Below are positions 6,853 to 49,666 of a stretch of 64,000 nt of DNA, piece after piece. Under the pieces are notes generated by a model. The model worked only from the letters and a program-made list of their open reading frames with translations. It was not told where the DNA came from and did not search any database. How positions within the stretch are numbered: position 1 is the stretch's first letter; each line of letters starts with the position of its first letter. Origin of the DNA: a virus; IMG/VR virus record IMGVR_UViG_3300034062_007329, positions 1 through 64,000 of that record; one strand, 5' to 3'. Both the position numbers and the translations under genes were made by a program.

Positions 6853-7880
6853 AAGAAGCTCTAACTTACGATGACGTACTACTCGTTCCAAAATTCTCCG
6901 ATATTGAGAGTAGAGCAAATATTAGCTTGGAAAGTGAACTTGATGTATCTTTAAAGTTTAATACCCCAATCATTGCCAGCCCAATGGATACAGTAAGCGG
7001 TGAAAATATGGCAATTAAACTGTCGCAATTAGGTGGCGTAGCAGTAATTCATAGATACAATACAATTGAACAACAATGTGAAATTGTTAGGAGCGTTAAA
7101 AGAGTTGGTGAGCGCGTTGGCGCTGCTGTTGGAACAACTGGCGATTTCTTAGAAAGAGTGACAAGACTAAAGAACGCTGGGGTTGACTTCATCTGTATTG
7201 ATGTTGCTCATGGACATCACAAAATGGTTTATGACGCAATTACTAAAATTCGCGCTGCTTTCCCATTTTTACATATTATGGCAGGGAATGTTGCCACCGC
7301 CGAGGCATTTGAAGCTTTGCAATCATGGGGTGCAGATTCAATCCGTGTAGGAATCGGTGGAGGCTCTATTTGCTCTACTCGCATTCAAACAGGGCATGGC
7401 GTTCCAAACGTTAGCGCGATTATGGAATGCGCTGAAGTCGCCACTTCAGCTAAACTTATTGCTGATGGCGGTATCAAAAATGCTGGCGATATCGTTAAAG
7501 CTTTAGCCGCTGGAGCAGACTTTGTAATGTTAGGTTCTATTCTTGCTGGAACAGATGAATCTCCTGGCGAAGTTATTGAATCTGTTTTGCATGGCACTAA
7601 GATGAAGTCTTATCGCGGCATGGCAAGCCGTGAAGCGCAAGAGGAATGGCGCGGCAAGTCTTCAGCACCAGAAGGAATTTCTACTATGGTTCCGTATAAA
7701 GGACCAGTAGAATTTATTTTTAATGATCTGGTGGGAAATATTAAAAGCGGGCTATCATATACTGGTGCTGTGACTATTAGTGGTTTACAGAGTAGATCTG
7801 AATTTATTCGCCAAACCTCCGCTGGTCAGCATGAAAGCTCAACACACATTCTTTCAAAAACTCCATTTGGACACAGATAA
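6849..7880 (+). CDS. guaB: IMP dehydrogenase / GMP reductase family, CBS-less
   Basis: 343-aa TIM-barrel enzyme. IMPDH oxidises IMP to XMP with NAD+; GMP reductase does the reverse step from GMP. The N-terminus ALTYDDVLLVP and PIIASPMDTVSG match IMPDH. The active-site cysteine loop reads GIGGGSICSTRIQTGHG, and phosphate-binding GGIKNAGDIVKAL and LGSILAG are present. The usual CBS regulatory pair is missing, as in GMP reductase and some short IMPDHs. The C-terminal SAGQHESSTH resembles IMPDH more than GMPR, so I favour IMPDH. Start at 6849 (ATGA overlap); the frame extends further upstream without a site. With purA at 25449 it acts on the IMP branch point. Confidence 0.88.
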   Translation: MKEALTYDDVLLVPKFSDIESRANISLESELDVSLKFNTPIIASPMDTVSGENMAIKLSQLGGVAVIHRYNTIEQQCEIVRSVKRVGERVGAAVGTTGDFLERVTRLKNAGVDFICIDVAHGHHKMVYDAITKIRAAFPFLHIMAGNVATAEAFEALQSWGADSIRVGIGGGSICSTRIQTGHGVPNVSAIMECAEVATSAKLIADGGIKNAGDIVKALAAGADFVMLGSILAGTDESPGEVIESVLHGTKMKSYRGMASREAQEEWRGKSSAPEGISTMVPYKGPVEFIFNDLVGNIKSGLSYTGAVTISGLQSRSEFIRQTSAGQHESSTHILSKTPFGHR

Positions 7881-14254: not shown

Positions 14255-15835
14255 GTGAAAGTATATGATAATGGTTTGTCTCTTAATACAAAAATTTTAA
14301 CAGGTGTAAATAAATTAGCAGATGCAGTTTCTGCGACTCTCGGTCCCAAAGGCAAGAACGTAGTAATTCATTTAAAAGGTCGTAATCCAATAATCACAAA
14401 AGATGGTGTTACCGTAGCACATGCAGTTGAGCTACAAGATCCTTTTGAAAACGTAGGCGCACAAGTTCTAAAACAAGCCTCTGCTGTAACAGCTCAAGAA
14501 GCTGGCGATGGAACAACTACTGCTACCGTGTTGGCTCGTTCTATTATGAACGAAGCCCAGAAATACATTATTGCAGGAGCGTCTCCAACAGATCTAAAAC
14601 GTGGCATGGATGCTGCTGTTGAATATATTGTAAAAAAGATTGAGGAAAATGCAAGACCAGTTGCAAGCTTAGAGAACATTGAGCATGTTGCCACAATATC
14701 GGCTAACGGCGATAAAAAGATTGGTAAACTAATTGCGACAGCAGTTGATAAAGTGGGTAAGGATGGAGCGATCACTATTGAGGCTGGAAAGAGTGTTGAA
14801 ACCAGTTTAGATATAGTTGAAGGTTTCCAAGTTAATTCTGGCTATTTATCGCCACAATTTGTTACCGATGAAACAAGAGCCGTAATGCGATTTGATGATG
14901 CGCGGCTTCTTATTACAGACCATAGCATAGATAATTTAGATGATCTTTTTCCTGTTTTAGAGATTATGGCAAGAGAAAAGAAGCCATTCGTTATAATCGC
15001 TGAAAACGTAGAAGGTCAAGCTCTTGCAGCCTTGATCTTAAATGCTGTTCGTGGTAGTATGAAGATCGGCGTTATTAAAGCTCCTAAGTATGGCGAGGAG
15101 CGTAGAAATATTATGAAAGATTTAGCCCTTGCAACTGGTGCCACATTCATTACACGCGAAAGTGGAAGACCATTACGTGATGCAAAATTAAAAGATTTAG
15201 GAACAGCTAAGACTGTAGAATCATTAAAGTTGCACACTACAATCGTCGGCGGTGGTGGTAATTATGAGGAAGTCGAGCGCCATATTGAGAGATTAAAGCA
15301 GGAAATTTTGCAGACCGAAGACCTCGCGGAGTGCGAGCGCATCCAAGAAAGAATTACCAGACTCGCCAGCGGGGTCGCCATAATTCGTGTGGGCGGTACG
15401 ACTGAAGTAGACATGGTGGAGCGTAAACACCGCGTTGAAGATGCCCTTGAAGCTGTTAAATCAGCGCAACAAGAAGGTATTTTACCAGGCGGCGGCGTTG
15501 CGCTTTTAAAGCTATCCAAGAATTTAGAAGAAGAAGTAACAGTAGACAACAGCGATGAACGGTTTGGTCTTAAGATCGTTCAGAGAGCCTGTGAAGAACC
15601 TATCCGTAAGCTTTCTGAGAATTGTGGTGATAAGCCAGATGTTGTTGTCGATACAGTATTAAATAAATGCGGTGATGACATCTGGAGTGGGCGTAATTTT
15701 TCAACTGGTGAATATGTAAATATGGATACGGCAGGGGTCATAGATCCAGCAAAAGTAACTCGTTGTGCGTTGCAAAATGCGGTTTCGGCTGCCTCAACAT
15801 TATTAACTACCTCGCATGCAATTGTTGATACTTAA
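14255..15835 (+). CDS. groEL: GroEL-type chaperonin
   Basis: 526 aa group I chaperonin, which folds proteins in an ATP-driven ring. ATP-site blocks TLGPKGKNVV, DGTTTATVLARSIM and LPGGGVALL are present, as is the equatorial KDGVTVA. The flexible GGM tail of bacterial GroEL is absent, so the protein ends at SHAIVDT. The start is GTG at 14255. No groES gene lies beside it. Phage GroELs are known (for example EL of Pseudomonas phage EL), where they can work without a co-chaperonin. An Hsp20 gene 2 kb downstream suggests virion folding support. Confidence 0.96.
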   Translation: MKVYDNGLSLNTKILTGVNKLADAVSATLGPKGKNVVIHLKGRNPIITKDGVTVAHAVELQDPFENVGAQVLKQASAVTAQEAGDGTTTATVLARSIMNEAQKYIIAGASPTDLKRGMDAAVEYIVKKIEENARPVASLENIEHVATISANGDKKIGKLIATAVDKVGKDGAITIEAGKSVETSLDIVEGFQVNSGYLSPQFVTDETRAVMRFDDARLLITDHSIDNLDDLFPVLEIMAREKKPFVIIAENVEGQALAALILNAVRGSMKIGVIKAPKYGEERRNIMKDLALATGATFITRESGRPLRDAKLKDLGTAKTVESLKLHTTIVGGGGNYEEVERHIERLKQEILQTEDLAECERIQERITRLASGVAIIRVGGTTEVDMVERKHRVEDALEAVKSAQQEGILPGGGVALLKLSKNLEEEVTVDNSDERFGLKIVQRACEEPIRKLSENCGDKPDVVVDTVLNKCGDDIWSGRNFSTGEYVNMDTAGVIDPAKVTRCALQNAVSAASTLLTTSHAIVDT

Positions 15836-24827: not shown

Positions 24828-25442
24828 ATGAGTACAAAAAAATCTGGAATTTATCGTATTACCAATAAAGTAAATAATAAAATTTATATTGGTTCTGCCT
24901 ACAACTTATCTAATCGATTTTCTACACACAAATATTCTTTAAGAAATAATAAACATAAAAATCCACACCTACAAAGTGCTTGGAATTTATATGACGAGAA
25001 AGATTTTATATTTGAAATTCTTGAAATCGTAGAAGATAAAACAAAAATTATTGAAAGAGAACAATATTATTTAGATTTATATAACCCATGCGATAATTCT
25101 ATAGGCTATAATATTGCTAAAAAAGCTGGTAATACTGCTGGAGTTAAAGTATCTCTTGAAACAAGACAAAAACAAAGCGAATCAGCAAAAAAAAGACCAA
25201 AATATAAATGGACTGAAGAACAGAAACAAAATAGGAAAAAGACCCGCAAAGGTCAAGTAATGCCTTGGGCTAAATTAAACTGGGGGCTTGTAAACGAGAT
25301 AAGAAAGTTGTATACTGATGGCGTCTTCCAAAGAGAAATAGCAAAAAAATATAATTTGGCACAAACGACTGTAAGTGAAATTATAAGAAATGTAATTTGG
25401 ATCGATGAGTATTATGCCTACGAGCGTAGGAGAAACGGATAA
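24828..25442 (+). CDS. GIY-YIG homing endonuclease
   Basis: 204 aa. GIY-YIG catalytic domain at residues 6-95 (SGIYRITNK, KIYIGSAYNLSNRF, Glu in IIEREQYYLDLYN). The C-terminal DNA-binding part holds WGLVNEIRKLYTDG and a helix-turn-helix (QREIAKKYNLAQTTVSEIIRN). Such free-standing endonucleases cut an uninvaded allele and spread by repair. It separates the upstream purA stub from the recoded purA, so purA is the likely target. Own late-type motif and GGAGG. Confidence 0.93.
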   Translation: MSTKKSGIYRITNKVNNKIYIGSAYNLSNRFSTHKYSLRNNKHKNPHLQSAWNLYDEKDFIFEILEIVEDKTKIIEREQYYLDLYNPCDNSIGYNIAKKAGNTAGVKVSLETRQKQSESAKKRPKYKWTEEQKQNRKKTRKGQVMPWAKLNWGLVNEIRKLYTDGVFQREIAKKYNLAQTTVSEIIRNVIWIDEYYAYERRRNG

Positions 25443-25448
25443 ATAATT

Positions 25449-26447
25449 ATGATAGATTATGCTGATGTAGTGGTTGATCTTGCGTATGGGGATTCTGGAA
25501 AGGGAAAAGTTACACATCATTTAGCTAAAGTTGGGAACTATACTCACGTAATCAGGTTTTCTGGAGGCAATAACGCTGGACACACGATTTACCACGAAGG
25601 CAAGAAGTTTATCACTCATTCTATTCCTTCTGGTGTATTTTATGGAATTCGAAGCATTATTGGACCTGGATGTGTACTTAATGTAGAGCATTTCTTTAAT
25701 GAGATGAAGGAGTTGGAAGATGGTGGTGTCAGGTGTCAGGGCTTGGTATTTATTGCACGAAATGCTCATATCATCACCGATGAACACGTTATGGAGGATC
25801 GACAAGATAACGTTATCGGGACAACAAAACGCGGCGTCGGTCAAGCCTATCGTGACAAGCACAGCCGCAAGGGCATACGAGCGGAACAGGTAGAAAAGTT
25901 AAAACCATACCTAATTGATATGTATGAGGAGTTTTATAAACCTAATCAAATTAGTCGTATCCTTTTTGAAGGCGCTCAAGGATTTGGTCTTGATATCGAT
26001 TGGGGAGATTACCCTTACGTTACTTCTTCTGGCTGCACTGTTGCTGCTGCAATTGCTAATGGAGTTCCTGCAAAGCGAATTCGCAATGTTTGGGGAGTTG
26101 CGAAAGCTTATGAAACGTATGTTGGAATGAAGAAATTTGAACCAGATGAACCCGTGTTTAAAACAATGAGAGAAATTGGAAATGAATACGGAGCAACAAC
26201 TGGTCGTCCTCGTCAATGCAATTGGGTCAATGCAAAAAATCTTTTTAAAGCTATCGATCTAAACGGAGCTAACAAGATTGTATTTAACAAGGTTGATATC
26301 TTGAGAGAGATTGGCTCTTGGAAGATCTATGATGAAGACGACAAACTTGTAGAGTTTAAGAGCGAAGAAGAAATGAAAACTTGGTTTGCTAATAAGCTCC
26401 CAAGATCAACTGAGATCTATTGGTCGGATTCACCGGAAAGACTATAA
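25449..26447 (+). CDS. purA: Adenylosuccinate synthetase, short phage form
   Basis: 332 aa (bacterial PurA is about 430). Joins IMP and aspartate using GTP, first committed step to AMP. P-loop YGDSGKGKVTHHLA keeps the catalytic Asp and replaces the next Glu by Ser. NNAGHTI, IGTTKRGVGQAYRD (IMP phosphate loop), GATTGRPRQCNW (aspartate loop with both arginines) and NKVDIL (guanine site) are present. The C-terminal part of bacterial PurA is shortened, as in archaeal forms. Its first 12 codons are a recoded copy of the stub at 24731. The retained Asp argues against PurZ of Z-genome phages. Confidence 0.9.
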   Translation: MIDYADVVVDLAYGDSGKGKVTHHLAKVGNYTHVIRFSGGNNAGHTIYHEGKKFITHSIPSGVFYGIRSIIGPGCVLNVEHFFNEMKELEDGGVRCQGLVFIARNAHIITDEHVMEDRQDNVIGTTKRGVGQAYRDKHSRKGIRAEQVEKLKPYLIDMYEEFYKPNQISRILFEGAQGFGLDIDWGDYPYVTSSGCTVAAAIANGVPAKRIRNVWGVAKAYETYVGMKKFEPDEPVFKTMREIGNEYGATTGRPRQCNWVNAKNLFKAIDLNGANKIVFNKVDILREIGSWKIYDEDDKLVEFKSEEEMKTWFANKLPRSTEIYWSDSPERL

Positions 26448-45924: not shown

Positions 45925-45953
45925 TTGACTCCTGCCCTCGCTTGTGATAGGAT
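45925..45953 (+). promoter_or_regulatory. Promoter, leaderless class
   Basis: TTGACT, 17 nt ending TGA, TAGGAT; ATG 45960 is 7 nt after the -10. Drives the V-G-Q-V-W array. Confidence 0.75.
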
Positions 45954-45959
45954 AAAAGA

Positions 45960-46163
45960 ATGGAACCCAAGGTTGGACAGATTTGGCGATATGCTACACC
46001 TTTCGATAATGGTGAAACCGTATATGAATATATTTTCATAACTGGGATCAAATCGAACGGACACGCAGTTCATTATTTTTCCTTTGATGATCCAGAAAGA
46101 CCCGTATGGGATTACGCACAATCGTTTGTGGAAAACAAAAGTTATGAATTTGTGAGTGGCTAA
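45960..46163 (+). CDS. V-G-Q-V-W array member 1
   Basis: 67 aa, MEPKVGQIWRYATPFDNGE ... ending YEFVSG. Predicted leaderless. First of four tandem paralogues with K-V-G-Q-x-W starts and V-S-D/G ends. Confidence 0.68.
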   Translation: MEPKVGQIWRYATPFDNGETVYEYIFITGIKSNGHAVHYFSFDDPERPVWDYAQSFVENKSYEFVSG

Positions 46164-46354
46164 TGAAACCCCAAATCAAGATCGGGCAAGTTTGGAAGTT
46201 CAAAGAAAGTTATGGCAGCGGTACAGATTATTACTTTGTTGTCAATCGTATCACGGAACAAGTGATCGGGTTTCAGTATTTGCACAAGGATTCAACTGGT
46301 TGGTGTTTTGAACGGGATTTTCATCGACAATATGAATTGGTGAGTGATGTATGA
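46163..46354 (+). CDS. V-G-Q-V-W array member 2
   Basis: 63 aa, KIGQVWKFKESYGSG ... YYFVVNRITEQ ... YELVSDV. TAATG overlap upstream, ATGA overlap downstream. Confidence 0.68.
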   Translation: MKPQIKIGQVWKFKESYGSGTDYYFVVNRITEQVIGFQYLHKDSTGWCFERDFHRQYELVSDV

Positions 46355-46548
46355 GAACTCCAATTCCTGGTGAATTGTGGAAAGACGAACACAATAAAAC
46401 GTTACTTATAAAAAGCGTAAGAGTAGATCATCCAGTAAGTCACGATTGGATTTATTATTATATCGTTGATTATGATATAGATAGTAATTGTTCGCTTGCA
46501 TCTTTCGTTAAATATTCAACGCTGGTGAGTGGATATTCTGATGGATAA
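46351..46548 (+). CDS. V-G-Q-V-W array member 3
   Basis: 65 aa, PIPGELWKDEHNKTLLIKSV ... STLVSGYSDG. Most divergent copy (P-G-E-L-W). Confidence 0.65.
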   Translation: MRTPIPGELWKDEHNKTLLIKSVRVDHPVSHDWIYYYIVDYDIDSNCSLASFVKYSTLVSGYSDG

Positions 46549-46765
46549 AGTAAAAGTTGGACAAGTTTGGAAGATACTTGAAAGTAAGTTAGACCTCAAG
46601 GGAGGGAACCCAGAAGATTACCTAATCGTTATCACAAAGATTTATAAGAAAGGAATGGTTGCAGACTTCTTTTATCTTGATGGTTATGATTCTGGTCGTG
46701 ATGGTGAGGACGATATAAACATTCCTTGGCTACTCAAGAATGGACAATTGGAGAGTGATGTATGA
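46541..46765 (+). CDS. V-G-Q-V-W array member 4
   Basis: 74 aa, MDKVKVGQVWKILESKLDLK ... LIVITKIYKKG ... LESDV. Start at ATG 46541; a GTG four codons earlier is possible. Confidence 0.66.
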   Translation: MDKVKVGQVWKILESKLDLKGGNPEDYLIVITKIYKKGMVADFFYLDGYDSGRDGEDDINIPWLLKNGQLESDV

Positions 46766-47073: not shown

Positions 47074-47102
47074 TTGACTTCAAAGCCCACCTATGTTAGA
47101 CT
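47074..47102 (+). promoter_or_regulatory. Promoter, leaderless class
   Basis: TTGACT, 17 nt, TAGACT; ATG 47109 is 7 nt after the -10. Heads the 12-gene array. Confidence 0.75.
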
Positions 47103-47108
47103 GTTCCT

Positions 47109-47333
47109 ATGGTCGAGCATAAGGTGGGCGAACTTGTTTTGATGGTTCTTAGGACTTATGAGAGAAGATACCAATACCTTGGTATCATCAAAAAGGTTGA
47201 TGACGGAATAATGATTGGTACAAAAGCCTATTTTGTCGAATGGAACGATGGACAAGACAATTGGTATTCCTCGGAAAGTATTGAGGAAATGAAAAGTGAC
47301 CTCTGGACTTACTATGAATCACAAAATCGGTGA
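47109..47333 (+). CDS. V-G-D-L-V array member 1
   Basis: 74 aa: HKVGELVLMVLRTYERR, LGIIKKVDDG, YFVEWNDGQ, then a C-terminal helix. Ends ESQNR, read out of frame from the next gene's MNHKIGDL codons (20-nt overlap). Pattern suggests an SH3/KOW-like barrel plus helix; function unknown. Confidence 0.7.
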   Translation: MVEHKVGELVLMVLRTYERRYQYLGIIKKVDDGIMIGTKAYFVEWNDGQDNWYSSESIEEMKSDLWTYYESQNR

Positions 47334-47532
47334 TCTTATTTGGTCACAATCCGCACACGAAATTGCAATCATCGTTGGATACTTTCCAAATGGTTTGCAC
47401 GGATCGGACAAGTTTAAATATTCCGTTTGCCACAGCTCTACTGGTAATCGGTTCTTCTACACGGAAGAAATGATTGAAACGGGCAAAAAGCAATTAGAGA
47501 AATTCTATGAACGCGAAGCATCAAATCGGTGA
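47314..47532 (+). CDS. V-G-D-L-V array member 2
   Basis: 72 aa: MNHKIGDLIWSQSAHE, IAIIVGYFPNG, ends EREASNR, again encoded by the overlapping start of the next gene (26 nt). Confidence 0.68.
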   Translation: MNHKIGDLIWSQSAHEIAIIVGYFPNGLHGSDKFKYSVCHSSTGNRFFYTEEMIETGKKQLEKFYEREASNR

Positions 47533-47722
47533 TCCTGTATACAGCAATTCGTATGGTCTTGGATATATTTCTGATATTGAACCAACCACTCTTCATGTGA
47601 AGCATCACGTTAAGTGGATGGACGATAATATGTTTCTTGCAGATGATAGATGGTATGAAGCAAAAGGCATTGACACTCTCAAGATGTTCCTGCGAATGAA
47701 ATTGCGCGGTGAAGATATATGA
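47507..47722 (+). CDS. V-G-D-L-V array member 3
   Basis: 71 aa: MNAKHQIGDPVYSNSYGLGY, HHVKWMDDN, C-terminal helix. Ends ATGA into member 4. Confidence 0.68.
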   Translation: MNAKHQIGDPVYSNSYGLGYISDIEPTTLHVKHHVKWMDDNMFLADDRWYEAKGIDTLKMFLRMKLRGEDI

Positions 47723-47970
47723 AACATAAAGTTGGTGACCTTGTTTATTACAAAGCAAACAAGAAAGTGTTTGCAGACAAAAACCAACCTTCAATTGGCA
47801 TTATAGCCAAGTGCTTTCCAAGGAAAGATACTTATTGGATTGAATGGTTGAATGACAGCGATGTGCTTTATCAGAAATTAGTAATGACAGAGTTTTCGGG
47901 TCAGGCGATTGGTTGGTTCAAAAGAGATTTGCAAGAGGTATTAGGGAATGACGGAACACAAAATCGGTGA
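47719..47970 (+). CDS. V-G-D-L-V array member 4
   Basis: 83 aa: MKHKVGDLVYYKANKKVF, SIGIIAKCFPR, YWIEWLNDSD. Ends GTQNR by 23-nt overlap. Confidence 0.7.
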   Translation: MKHKVGDLVYYKANKKVFADKNQPSIGIIAKCFPRKDTYWIEWLNDSDVLYQKLVMTEFSGQAIGWFKRDLQEVLGNDGTQNR

Positions 47971-48178
47971 TCTTGTTTACCAGCTTGACAACAAAAGCAT
48001 TGGCATCATCACAAAGATCACAGATGATGATAAGGAGAGTATGCCTCGTTACCGAATGATTTATATTATTGAATATGCAAATGGCAAAACTGGTCGTCAT
48101 TCCGCTGCCGTCATTGATGGTATGAAAAGCAATCTACAAAACCACTTAAGGAAAGAAAATGGATCACAAAGTCGGTGA
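47948..48178 (+). CDS. V-G-D-L-V array member 5
   Basis: 76 aa: MTEHKIGDLVYQLDNKSIGI, ITKITDDDK, YIIEYANGK. Ends GSQSR by 20-nt overlap. Confidence 0.7.
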   Translation: MTEHKIGDLVYQLDNKSIGIITKITDDDKESMPRYRMIYIIEYANGKTGRHSAAVIDGMKSNLQNHLRKENGSQSR

Positions 48179-48374
48179 TTTGATATATGACGATATTAGC
48201 GAAGCCATTGGAGTGATAAAGCGAATCCGTGAGGATGAAGAAAATGGAATACTCTATGATATCGAATGGAGTAGCGGAGAGGCATCAACTGGTATTCACG
48301 GACTTGCATCGGAATCAATTGACTATCTCAAGGATTTACTAAATGCAGAACTCAAAAGAGCACAACGTCGGTGA
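48159..48374 (+). CDS. V-G-D-L-V array member 6
   Basis: 71 aa: MDHKVGDLIYDDISEAIGVI, YDIEWSSGE. Ends RAQRR by 32-nt overlap. Confidence 0.7.
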   Translation: MDHKVGDLIYDDISEAIGVIKRIREDEENGILYDIEWSSGEASTGIHGLASESIDYLKDLLNAELKRAQRR

Positions 48375-48549
48375 TCTTGTTCTTGCTGGTGGTTTAGGGA
48401 TCATAACAAAGATAGATAGGGATTTCCGTGCTGACTGGTATCACGTTGAATGGTGTTGCGAAGGAAATGAAGCCATCAGAAGCGCGTTTCAGGATAACGA
48501 GATCGCGTATTTTAAAGAGGCGTTGAATCGTGAATCACAAAGTCGGTGA
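48343..48549 (+). CDS. V-G-D-L-V array member 7
   Basis: 68 aa: MQNSKEHNVGDLVLAGGLGI, YHVEWCCEG. Ends ESQSR by 20-nt overlap. Confidence 0.69.
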   Translation: MQNSKEHNVGDLVLAGGLGIITKIDRDFRADWYHVEWCCEGNEAIRSAFQDNEIAYFKEALNRESQSR

Positions 48550-48778
48550 TCCTGTTTATTGCAATGGTAGTGTAGGAGCAATCAAGGCAACAAGCGAAGG
48601 GGTATATGGTCCCCAAGTAGTATTGCCAGAAACGGAGCGTAGTTATAGGATTGAATGGTTTGACGATAAACCATTTGCAAGTGGCTACATCCGAAAGGTC
48701 TGGTTTAACTTTTATGAAGTTGCTTCCTTCAAAGAGCAATTGCGAGAGGCGTTAAATGAGCAATCATCAAGTAGGTGA
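48530..48778 (+). CDS. V-G-D-L-V array member 8 (GTG start)
   Basis: 82 aa from GTG: NHKVGDPVYCNGSVGAIKA, YRIEWFDDK. Ends EQSSSR by 23-nt overlap. Confidence 0.68.
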   Translation: MNHKVGDPVYCNGSVGAIKATSEGVYGPQVVLPETERSYRIEWFDDKPFASGYIRKVWFNFYEVASFKEQLREALNEQSSSR

Positions 48779-48986
48779 TTTGGTCTACGATCCAGCATAC
48801 CAAGATTTTGGCGTTATCACAAAGATATGGACAGAGGATGAATTAACAAAACTTGGAAAAGAACCTCCATATTACACAATCGAAGTGCGATTCCCAGATA
48901 GCAAGGTTATGCCAGTAGATAGATACAAGCCAAATACGATTGACAAGTTCAAACGGACATTGAAGGATATGTATGATGAATCATAA
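48756..48986 (+). CDS. V-G-D-L-V array member 9
   Basis: 76 aa: MSNHQVGDLVYDPAYQDFGV, ITKIWTEDE, YTIEVRFPD. Stop TAA lies in the next gene's N-H codons. Confidence 0.69.
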   Translation: MSNHQVGDLVYDPAYQDFGVITKIWTEDELTKLGKEPPYYTIEVRFPDSKVMPVDRYKPNTIDKFKRTLKDMYDES

Positions 48987-49191
48987 CGTTGGCGATCTTG
49001 TATTGCATAAGGCTCACACATTGAGGAATACTCTTGGATATATCAAAAAGATTAAAGCATATCGAGAGTACGAAGTCTATTGGTTCAATCCTTACTTGAA
49101 GCATCAAGATGACATATCGTTAGAGTCTGATGCGTCAATAAATTCGCTCAAAAGAAACCTACAGGAATATATGGATGAGCATCACTCATAA
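48973..49191 (+). CDS. V-G-D-L-V array member 10
   Basis: 72 aa: MMNHNVGDLVLHKAHTLRNT, LGYIKKIKA, YEVYWFNPY. Second ATG (48976) equally possible. Confidence 0.68.
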   Translation: MMNHNVGDLVLHKAHTLRNTLGYIKKIKAYREYEVYWFNPYLKHQDDISLESDASINSLKRNLQEYMDEHHS

Positions 49192-49435
49192 GGTAGGCGA
49201 TCTGGTGATGGGCGTCAATGTGGACAACGAAACAATTTTGGGAGTAATAAAAAAGATTTCCATTGCAGACACTAATATTGTTGTTGACAACAACGTGGAA
49301 CGCTATTATGAAGGTGAACCCCATTACCAGATTGAATGGGCGAATGATCTCCACTCTAATGTTTGGTATAAGGAAAGCAATGTTAATGCTTTCAAGATGA
49401 CGTTTGATGAATATATGAGGAGAAAGAAAAAATAA
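49175..49435 (+). CDS. V-G-D-L-V array member 11
   Basis: 86 aa: SITHKVGDLVMGVNVDNETI, LGVIKKISI, YQIEWANDL; basic tail RRKKK. Confidence 0.69.
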   Translation: MSITHKVGDLVMGVNVDNETILGVIKKISIADTNIVVDNNVERYYEGEPHYQIEWANDLHSNVWYKESNVNAFKMTFDEYMRRKKK

Positions 49436-49666
49436 ATGGATGAGTATAAGATAGGCGATCTACTCATGATGCATCGGCTTTCACTAAAGCCAGTAATTGG
49501 AATCGTCAAGGATTGTAAAGTGGGGGATATTAGCAATAGTAAATATTACTTTGTAGAATGGATATCCGAAGATGCGGGGATTACAACAAACGTTTGGTTT
49601 GCAGAATGTGATATACAATACTATAGGCAAGCGTATGTGCAGTATGCAGCGGATAATAGCCTTTAG
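49436..49666 (+). CDS. V-G-D-L-V array member 12
   Basis: 76 aa: MDEYKIGDLLMMHRLSLKP, VIGIVKDCK, YFVEWISED. Last copy; starts directly after the previous stop with no overlap. Confidence 0.69.
   Translation: MDEYKIGDLLMMHRLSLKPVIGIVKDCKVGDISNSKYYFVEWISEDAGITTNVWFAECDIQYYRQAYVQYAADNSL

Follow-up and report, generated by a model that had tools for sequence, protein, structure and literature searches.

The window analysed here is a stretch of 64,000 nucleotides (positions 1 to 64,000) of the 78,786-base IMG/VR virus record IMGVR_UViG_3300034062_007329, labelled G000. On its + strand, at 47109–49666, lies a tandem array of twelve genes for proteins of 68–86 amino acids, which had been predicted from the letters alone to be paralogues, and their alignment shows that they are clearly homologous. 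Genes 1 to 11 overlap successively, and genes 11 and 12 follow each other without overlap. The features of the array are as follows, l3, l4, l8 and l10 being copies in the corresponding array of the nearest relative, G001.

47074..47102, +, sigma70-like promoter, TTGACT-17-TAGACT, 6 nucleotides 5′ of the gene 1 ATG; kept in G001
47109..47333, +, array gene 1, 74 amino acids; TGA inside the gene 2 GGTGAT; protein of the G001 orthologue 100% identical
47314..47532, +, array gene 2, 72 amino acids, ATG at 47314; TGA inside the gene 3 GGTGAT
47507..47722, +, array gene 3, 71 amino acids; start matches G001 l3, body matches l4 (recombinant at the junction); overlaps gene 4 by ATGA
47719..47970, +, array gene 4, 83 amino acids; TGA inside the gene 5 GGTGAT
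47948..48178, +, array gene 5, 76 amino acids; TGA inside the gene 6 GGTGAT; AlphaFold2 model
48159..48374, +, array gene 6, 71 amino acids; TGA inside the gene 7 GGTGAT
48343..48549, +, array gene 7, 68 amino acids; start matches G001 l8, body matches l10 (junction recombinant); TGA inside the gene 8 GGTGAT
48530..48778, +, array gene 8, 82 amino acids, GTG start; body non-orthologous to the G001 gene at the same place; TGA inside the gene 9 GGTGAT
48756..48986, +, array gene 9, 76 amino acids; TAA out of frame from the gene 10 CAT-AAC (His-Asn)
48973..49191, +, array gene 10, 72 amino acids, possible second ATG at 48976; TAA from the gene 11 CAT-AAG (His-Lys)
49175..49435, +, array gene 11, 86 amino acids
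49436..49666, +, array gene 12, 76 amino acids; not orthologous to any copy of the G001 array
47518..47540, +, junction 2/3, where a one-unit insertion or deletion (indel) against G001 has its breakpoint
48361..48380, +, junction 6/7, where a two-unit indel against G001 has its breakpoint
48530..48560, +, junction 7/8, where homology to G001 stops and the next cassette is replaced
49175..49212, +, junction 10/11, partner switch in the homology to G001

Pairwise identity among the twelve proteins is approximately 21–34%, and 23–34% relative to copy 1; in the alignment one Gly is common to all copies, and six further positions, occupied by His, Asp, Gly, Ile, Tyr and Lys, hardly vary. A profile built from the copies recovers 12/12 at E 1e-19 or better, the same copies being inside the profile. 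Seven of the eleven junctions (1/2, 2/3, 4/5, 5/6, 6/7, 7/8 and 8/9) have the layout originally predicted, in which the upstream gene stops at a TGA inside the next gene's GGTGAT; their overlaps measure 20–32 nucleotides and the upstream tails read, in order, SQNR, ASNR, TQNR, SQSR, AQRR, SQSR and SSSR. At these TGA junctions the start and the Gly-Asp motif of one gene do double as coding sequence for the tail of the preceding protein; the seam of the window, TCACAAAGTCGGTGA, reads S-Q-S-R-stop in one frame and H-K-V-G-D in the other. At junctions 9/10 and 10/11 the upstream TAA is read from the CAT-AAx (His-Asn/Lys) codons of the next gene, and junction 3/4 is a 4-nucleotide ATGA overlap.

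A Shine-Dalgarno-like sequence of at least 4 nucleotides is found at 85% of the internal starts versus 26% in the control, and from these sites and the overlaps it is plausible that the array is coupled into one translational unit. The TTGACT-17-TAGACT-6-ATG arrangement before gene 1 is by sequence match a leaderless layout and is conserved in G001. Promoters of the form TTGAC-N17-TANNNT at 3–9 nucleotides before an ATG occur 11 times in the window versus 1.1 expected, and a leaderless arrangement may be usual for the promoters of this phage. Such promoters lie at 45925, 47074, 49842, 50691, 52407, 54554, 55673, 26643 and 29503; one of the 11 matches lies within the array on the − strand and has probably arisen by chance.

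Copy number varies: at the same locus there are 12 copies in the window and 16 in G001, where the TGA falls inside GGTGAT at 11 of 15 junctions and copy l14 starts at 7382. In the nucleotide alignment, the two arrays differ by two indels, one of a single unit and the other of two units, and by replacements, and the breakpoints fall within the junction motif. Through the start of window gene 3, as far as GGTGATCCTGTAT, identity is to one G001 copy, and it picks up again in the copy that follows; gene 7 shows the same jump with two units between, and at gene 8 identity ends at the seam. The jumps at genes 3 and 7 imply that each of these genes has its start from one cassette and its body from a different one. 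Over six close orthologous copies, the pooled ratio of nonsynonymous to synonymous substitution rates between the window and G001 is 0.106, which indicates purifying selection and thus that the array proteins are maintained.

Searching with the strict seam pattern, His included, returned G001 only, plus three chance matches. A relaxed pattern, two Gly-Asp motifs approximately one unit apart, matched at least 119 stretches in IMG/VR, from which loci were built by mechanical chaining of small open reading frames, giving 430 genes in 61 loci (these counts, and those of junctions and cassette clusters that follow, are among the matches listed). Across 329 junctions the TGA lies inside GGTGA in 231 and the overlap is exactly 14 nucleotides in 214. 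The array seam in this wider set is not merely a product of pattern selection, because 126 of the 201 junctions outside pattern-matched pairs are still of the same kind; moreover, the same chaining procedure on unselected loci gave three short chains only, none with this kind of seam. The seam pattern occurs 2–24 times per record, on a single strand, in 32/32 records, with 0 matches for the reversed-pattern control.

The wider seam consensus, TTGGAGGTnATCAGTGAAAGTCGGTGATTTGGT, is fully coding: one frame gives L-E-V-I-S-E-S-R-stop and the other V-K-V-G-D-L-V, the sequence thus holding the Shine-Dalgarno sequence, the start and the K-V-G-D-L of one gene together with the tail of the previous gene. 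It carries a Shine-Dalgarno-like sequence in 88% of cases versus 11% just upstream; start codons are near-invariant (TG in 99%, preceded by A or G), and the previous gene's tail is mostly SESR where the start is GTG and NESR where it is ATG. The window seam is of the same design with a longer N-terminus, and the two types of array are related (hhalign probability 97%). The original prediction knew of no described system with this layout. In the open-access full texts searched no description of such arrays was found, and to that extent the claim stands; the layout itself is not peculiar to this DNA, a tighter version, with overlaps of 14 nucleotides, being present in at least approximately 60 other uncultivated contigs.

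A T4-type Gp23 capsid protein was found in 12 of 21 records tested, 11 of the 12 being array-bearing; in one, G025, the nearest cultured capsids are approximately 45–47% identical over part of the length. No Gp23 match was found in the G000 record. Cultured phages searched with the consensus proteins, the seam and array DNA gave single weak matches and no arrays, and the pattern detected none in Flavobacterium phage immuto, Microcystis phage Mel-JY01 and Rhodothermus phage RM378, which are cultured relatives by capsid protein. When a collection of bacterial and archaeal genomes was scanned with the seam pattern, a single chance-like match turned up, in Pseudomonas, and no array. In a more distant phage, G003, small SH3-like genes are clustered with mostly short overlaps (L012 8662–10171 and 12018–12472); one gene of this cluster is a clear array homologue (E 1e-12), and the cluster is a possible simpler relative of the array.

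Exchange of cassettes is visible across this wider set. Cassette cores form 279 clusters, of which 83 contain at least two cores. Where two different phages share a cassette, the genes adjoining it on the same side were of one cluster in only 16 of 312 comparisons; individual genes with as much as 95% identity stand between unrelated neighbours in different phages. One cassette present in five contigs has 93–100% identity per 30-nucleotide block over its first 150 nucleotides, with both flanks at 13–47%. The blastn homology endpoints inside arrays, which are not fully independent, fall between −25 and +30 nucleotides of the Gly codon in 72 of 87 cases (63 of 76 after de-duplication), a zone that takes up 29% of array positions, the share expected. 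Breakpoints thus lie in short shared sequence, as in the short-homology recombination of phage cassettes. L073 and L123 hold common cassettes in scrambled order at identities of 63–95%, which suggests separate transfers. An apparent reversal of cassette order between L150 and L151 was set aside, the nucleotide matches between both contigs being scrambled and not reversed. The original prediction had taken every junction for an in-register recombination point. Junctions do act in register, as seen in the indels and replacements against G001 and in single-cassette exchange elsewhere, but the stop within the motif is confined to 7 of the 11 junctions of the window.

With regard to the proteins, AlphaFold2 predicts SH3-like barrels for both array types (predicted local distance difference test 84.8 and 90.7), the gene 5 model, at 84.8, adding a C-terminal helix. 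VIA Z reaches 6.1 and 8.2 with barrels of the Tudor, KOW and similar types, a likeness at fold level only. A specific function derived from the fold was rejected, as Tudor, KOW, CarD, R67 DHFR and others tie; given these ties, binding to host proteins or nucleic acids would be only a guess. One copy scored 21.3 bits with CarD_TRCF_RID (PF02559), below the cut-off of 23, and named PHROG and Pfam families matched isolated members weakly and none across copies. DUF2158/gp30.5 of T4-like phages and YorP of B. subtilis resemble the array proteins in size and SH3-like fold, but gave no significant family match to them, and no comparable arrays were found in cultured phages.

We consider it probable, on these comparisons of sequence, that the tandem genes of the locus are interchangeable cassettes whose exchange is bounded by the seam, a reading that leaves protein function aside. 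Each cassette would be the gene of one small SH3-like (Tudor/KOW-type) protein, and the seam would carry the Shine-Dalgarno sequence, start and K-V-G-D-L of the next gene, and also the stop of the previous one with its C-terminal tail. As each cassette is bounded by the same seam at both ends, recombination between any two seams, which may belong to one genome or to another phage, would add, remove or swap whole genes; reading frames, ribosome-binding sites and stops would be kept, hence a new cassette would join the coupled unit at once, presumably translated by termination-reinitiation at the overlap. The exchange itself may proceed without an integrase, by short-homology recombination with phage enzymes of the RecA/UvsX type, as at T4 microhomologies. 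RecA/UvsX was found in 8 of 8 large array-bearing records tested. No tyrosine recombinase (PF00589), the enzyme type (IntI) by which an integron is recognised, and no serine recombinase was found in 15 records, most of which are possibly fragments. GIY-YIG nucleases were found in 3 of these 15 records, G000 included; in the window, the same phage as the array, the domain lies at 24843–25088 (E 1.4e-16).

Ordinary tandem duplication and divergence, in which the seam is kept for N-terminal folding, the overlaps come from genome compactness and no exchange system exists, would explain that the G-D-L-V motif belongs to the barrel, that a +2-frame stop follows automatically from GGT-GAY and that small phage SH3-like genes with Gly-Asp also occur in clusters with 4-nucleotide overlaps. 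It seems unlikely nonetheless, as cassettes up to 95% identical occur in different phages amid unrelated neighbours with both flanks dissimilar, same-cluster pairs within one locus are rare (6), and the seam conserves a Shine-Dalgarno sequence and a start, neither of which is needed for folding. Slightly less likely still is a site-specific recombinase or homing nuclease that recognises the seam and moves cassettes, in the manner of an integron integrase or SegB. The exact boundaries and a conserved seam of approximately 33 base pairs would suit such an enzyme, as would the GIY-YIG nucleases noted above and the precedent of SegB in T6 (PMC13096335); yet the 15 records lack a tyrosine or serine recombinase, most of them lack GIY-YIG, and on our reading the conserved seam positions are explicable by coding, Shine-Dalgarno or start needs.

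The shuffled orders could also be metagenome assembly chimeras formed at the seams, which are near-identical repeats of up to approximately 33 base pairs. This is very improbable: the same cassette orders are found again in records from different samples (L040/L043, L042/L103 and L024/L054, with L152/L154 nearly so), and exchanged cassettes differ by 5–25% between phages and are therefore not the same reads. Least probable of all is +1 frameshifting at CGG-TGA, by which the genes would yield fused multi-SH3 polyproteins and not separate proteins. The next gene does lie in the +1 frame at the overlap, and an upstream Shine-Dalgarno-like element can stimulate frameshifting, as in prfB; but here the spacing is unlike that of prfB and suits initiation, start codons are near-invariant, and re-pairing of the CGG tRNA should be poor.

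Several points weigh against seam-bounded exchange of cassettes as set out above. G001 is the sole close relative of the window itself that was found, blastn endpoint calls can be pulled towards the conserved seam, the pattern scan behind the wider set is biased towards GGTGAYYT motifs with counts taken from the matches listed, and the fold matches are ties. No RecA match was found in the window's own 78.8-kilobase record, which may be a fragment, and the whole case is one of sequence data. More tentatively, at somewhat less than even likelihood, we propose that a large group of uncultivated phages, many of T4 type, has a recombinase-free system in which a dual-coding seam would serve as ribosome-binding site, start, stop and recombination point, and through which phages would trade SH3-like host-interaction modules via a common pool, as integrons do, the seam being kept for frame-safe exchange. 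That the arrays are repertoires of host-binding modules, for host takeover or anti-defence, is the weakest step and a little more doubtful again.

Elsewhere in the G000 record, the gene content includes a DnaE-like DNA polymerase, a GroEL-like chaperonin and 16 transfer RNAs. In the window, 14255–15835 has a PHROG match to GroEL and 25449–26447 to a 2-aminooxy adenylosuccinate synthetase-type protein, which may point to modified-base metabolism. Just upstream of the array, at 45960–46765, a second cluster of small genes has short overlaps and a G-Q-(I/V)-W or G-E-L-W motif; its G001 counterpart (L004 3005–3401) additionally holds genes with the V-G-D motif.

If our reading of the seam is true, genes would be exchanged as modules seemingly without an enzyme of the system's own, by a coding seam that would both direct translation and serve as the site of recombination. 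On this reading, any cassette should fit any slot, and small phage proteins by the hundred, as yet unstudied, may have hosts or host defences as their targets. Integrons hold one gene per cassette, in arrays of variable order with a common boundary site, and in all three respects the phage arrays are similar; they differ in that no tyrosine recombinase was found, the seam is coding, with a Shine-Dalgarno sequence, start and stop, and the cassettes are all paralogues. T4 amplifies its anti-defence genes dmd-tifA through recombination at microhomologies of 6–10 base pairs (PMC9391042), and SegB drives amplification of anti-defence loci in T6 (PMC13096335). As 6–10 base pairs suffice in T4, seams of 14–33 base pairs should be ample. 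Both cases share with the arrays a tandem change in copy number of small phage genes at short repeats, in T4-type phages, but they involve chance repeats of 6–10 base pairs and identical copies, whereas the arrays have a standard coding seam, diverged genes and swaps between phages. Short-homology recombination, overlapping genes and tandem paralogues each have precedents; a description of their combination, and of its spread across phages, was not found in the open-access texts searched. On a stricter reading, the arrays could be a variant of boundary-sequence mosaicism, which, as relayed in PMC3029335, proposes conserved boundary sequences between phage modules as points of homologous recombination; the short conserved sequence between modules is common to both, and, compared with the boundary as described there, the array seam occurs up to 24 times per record and codes for both of its neighbours.
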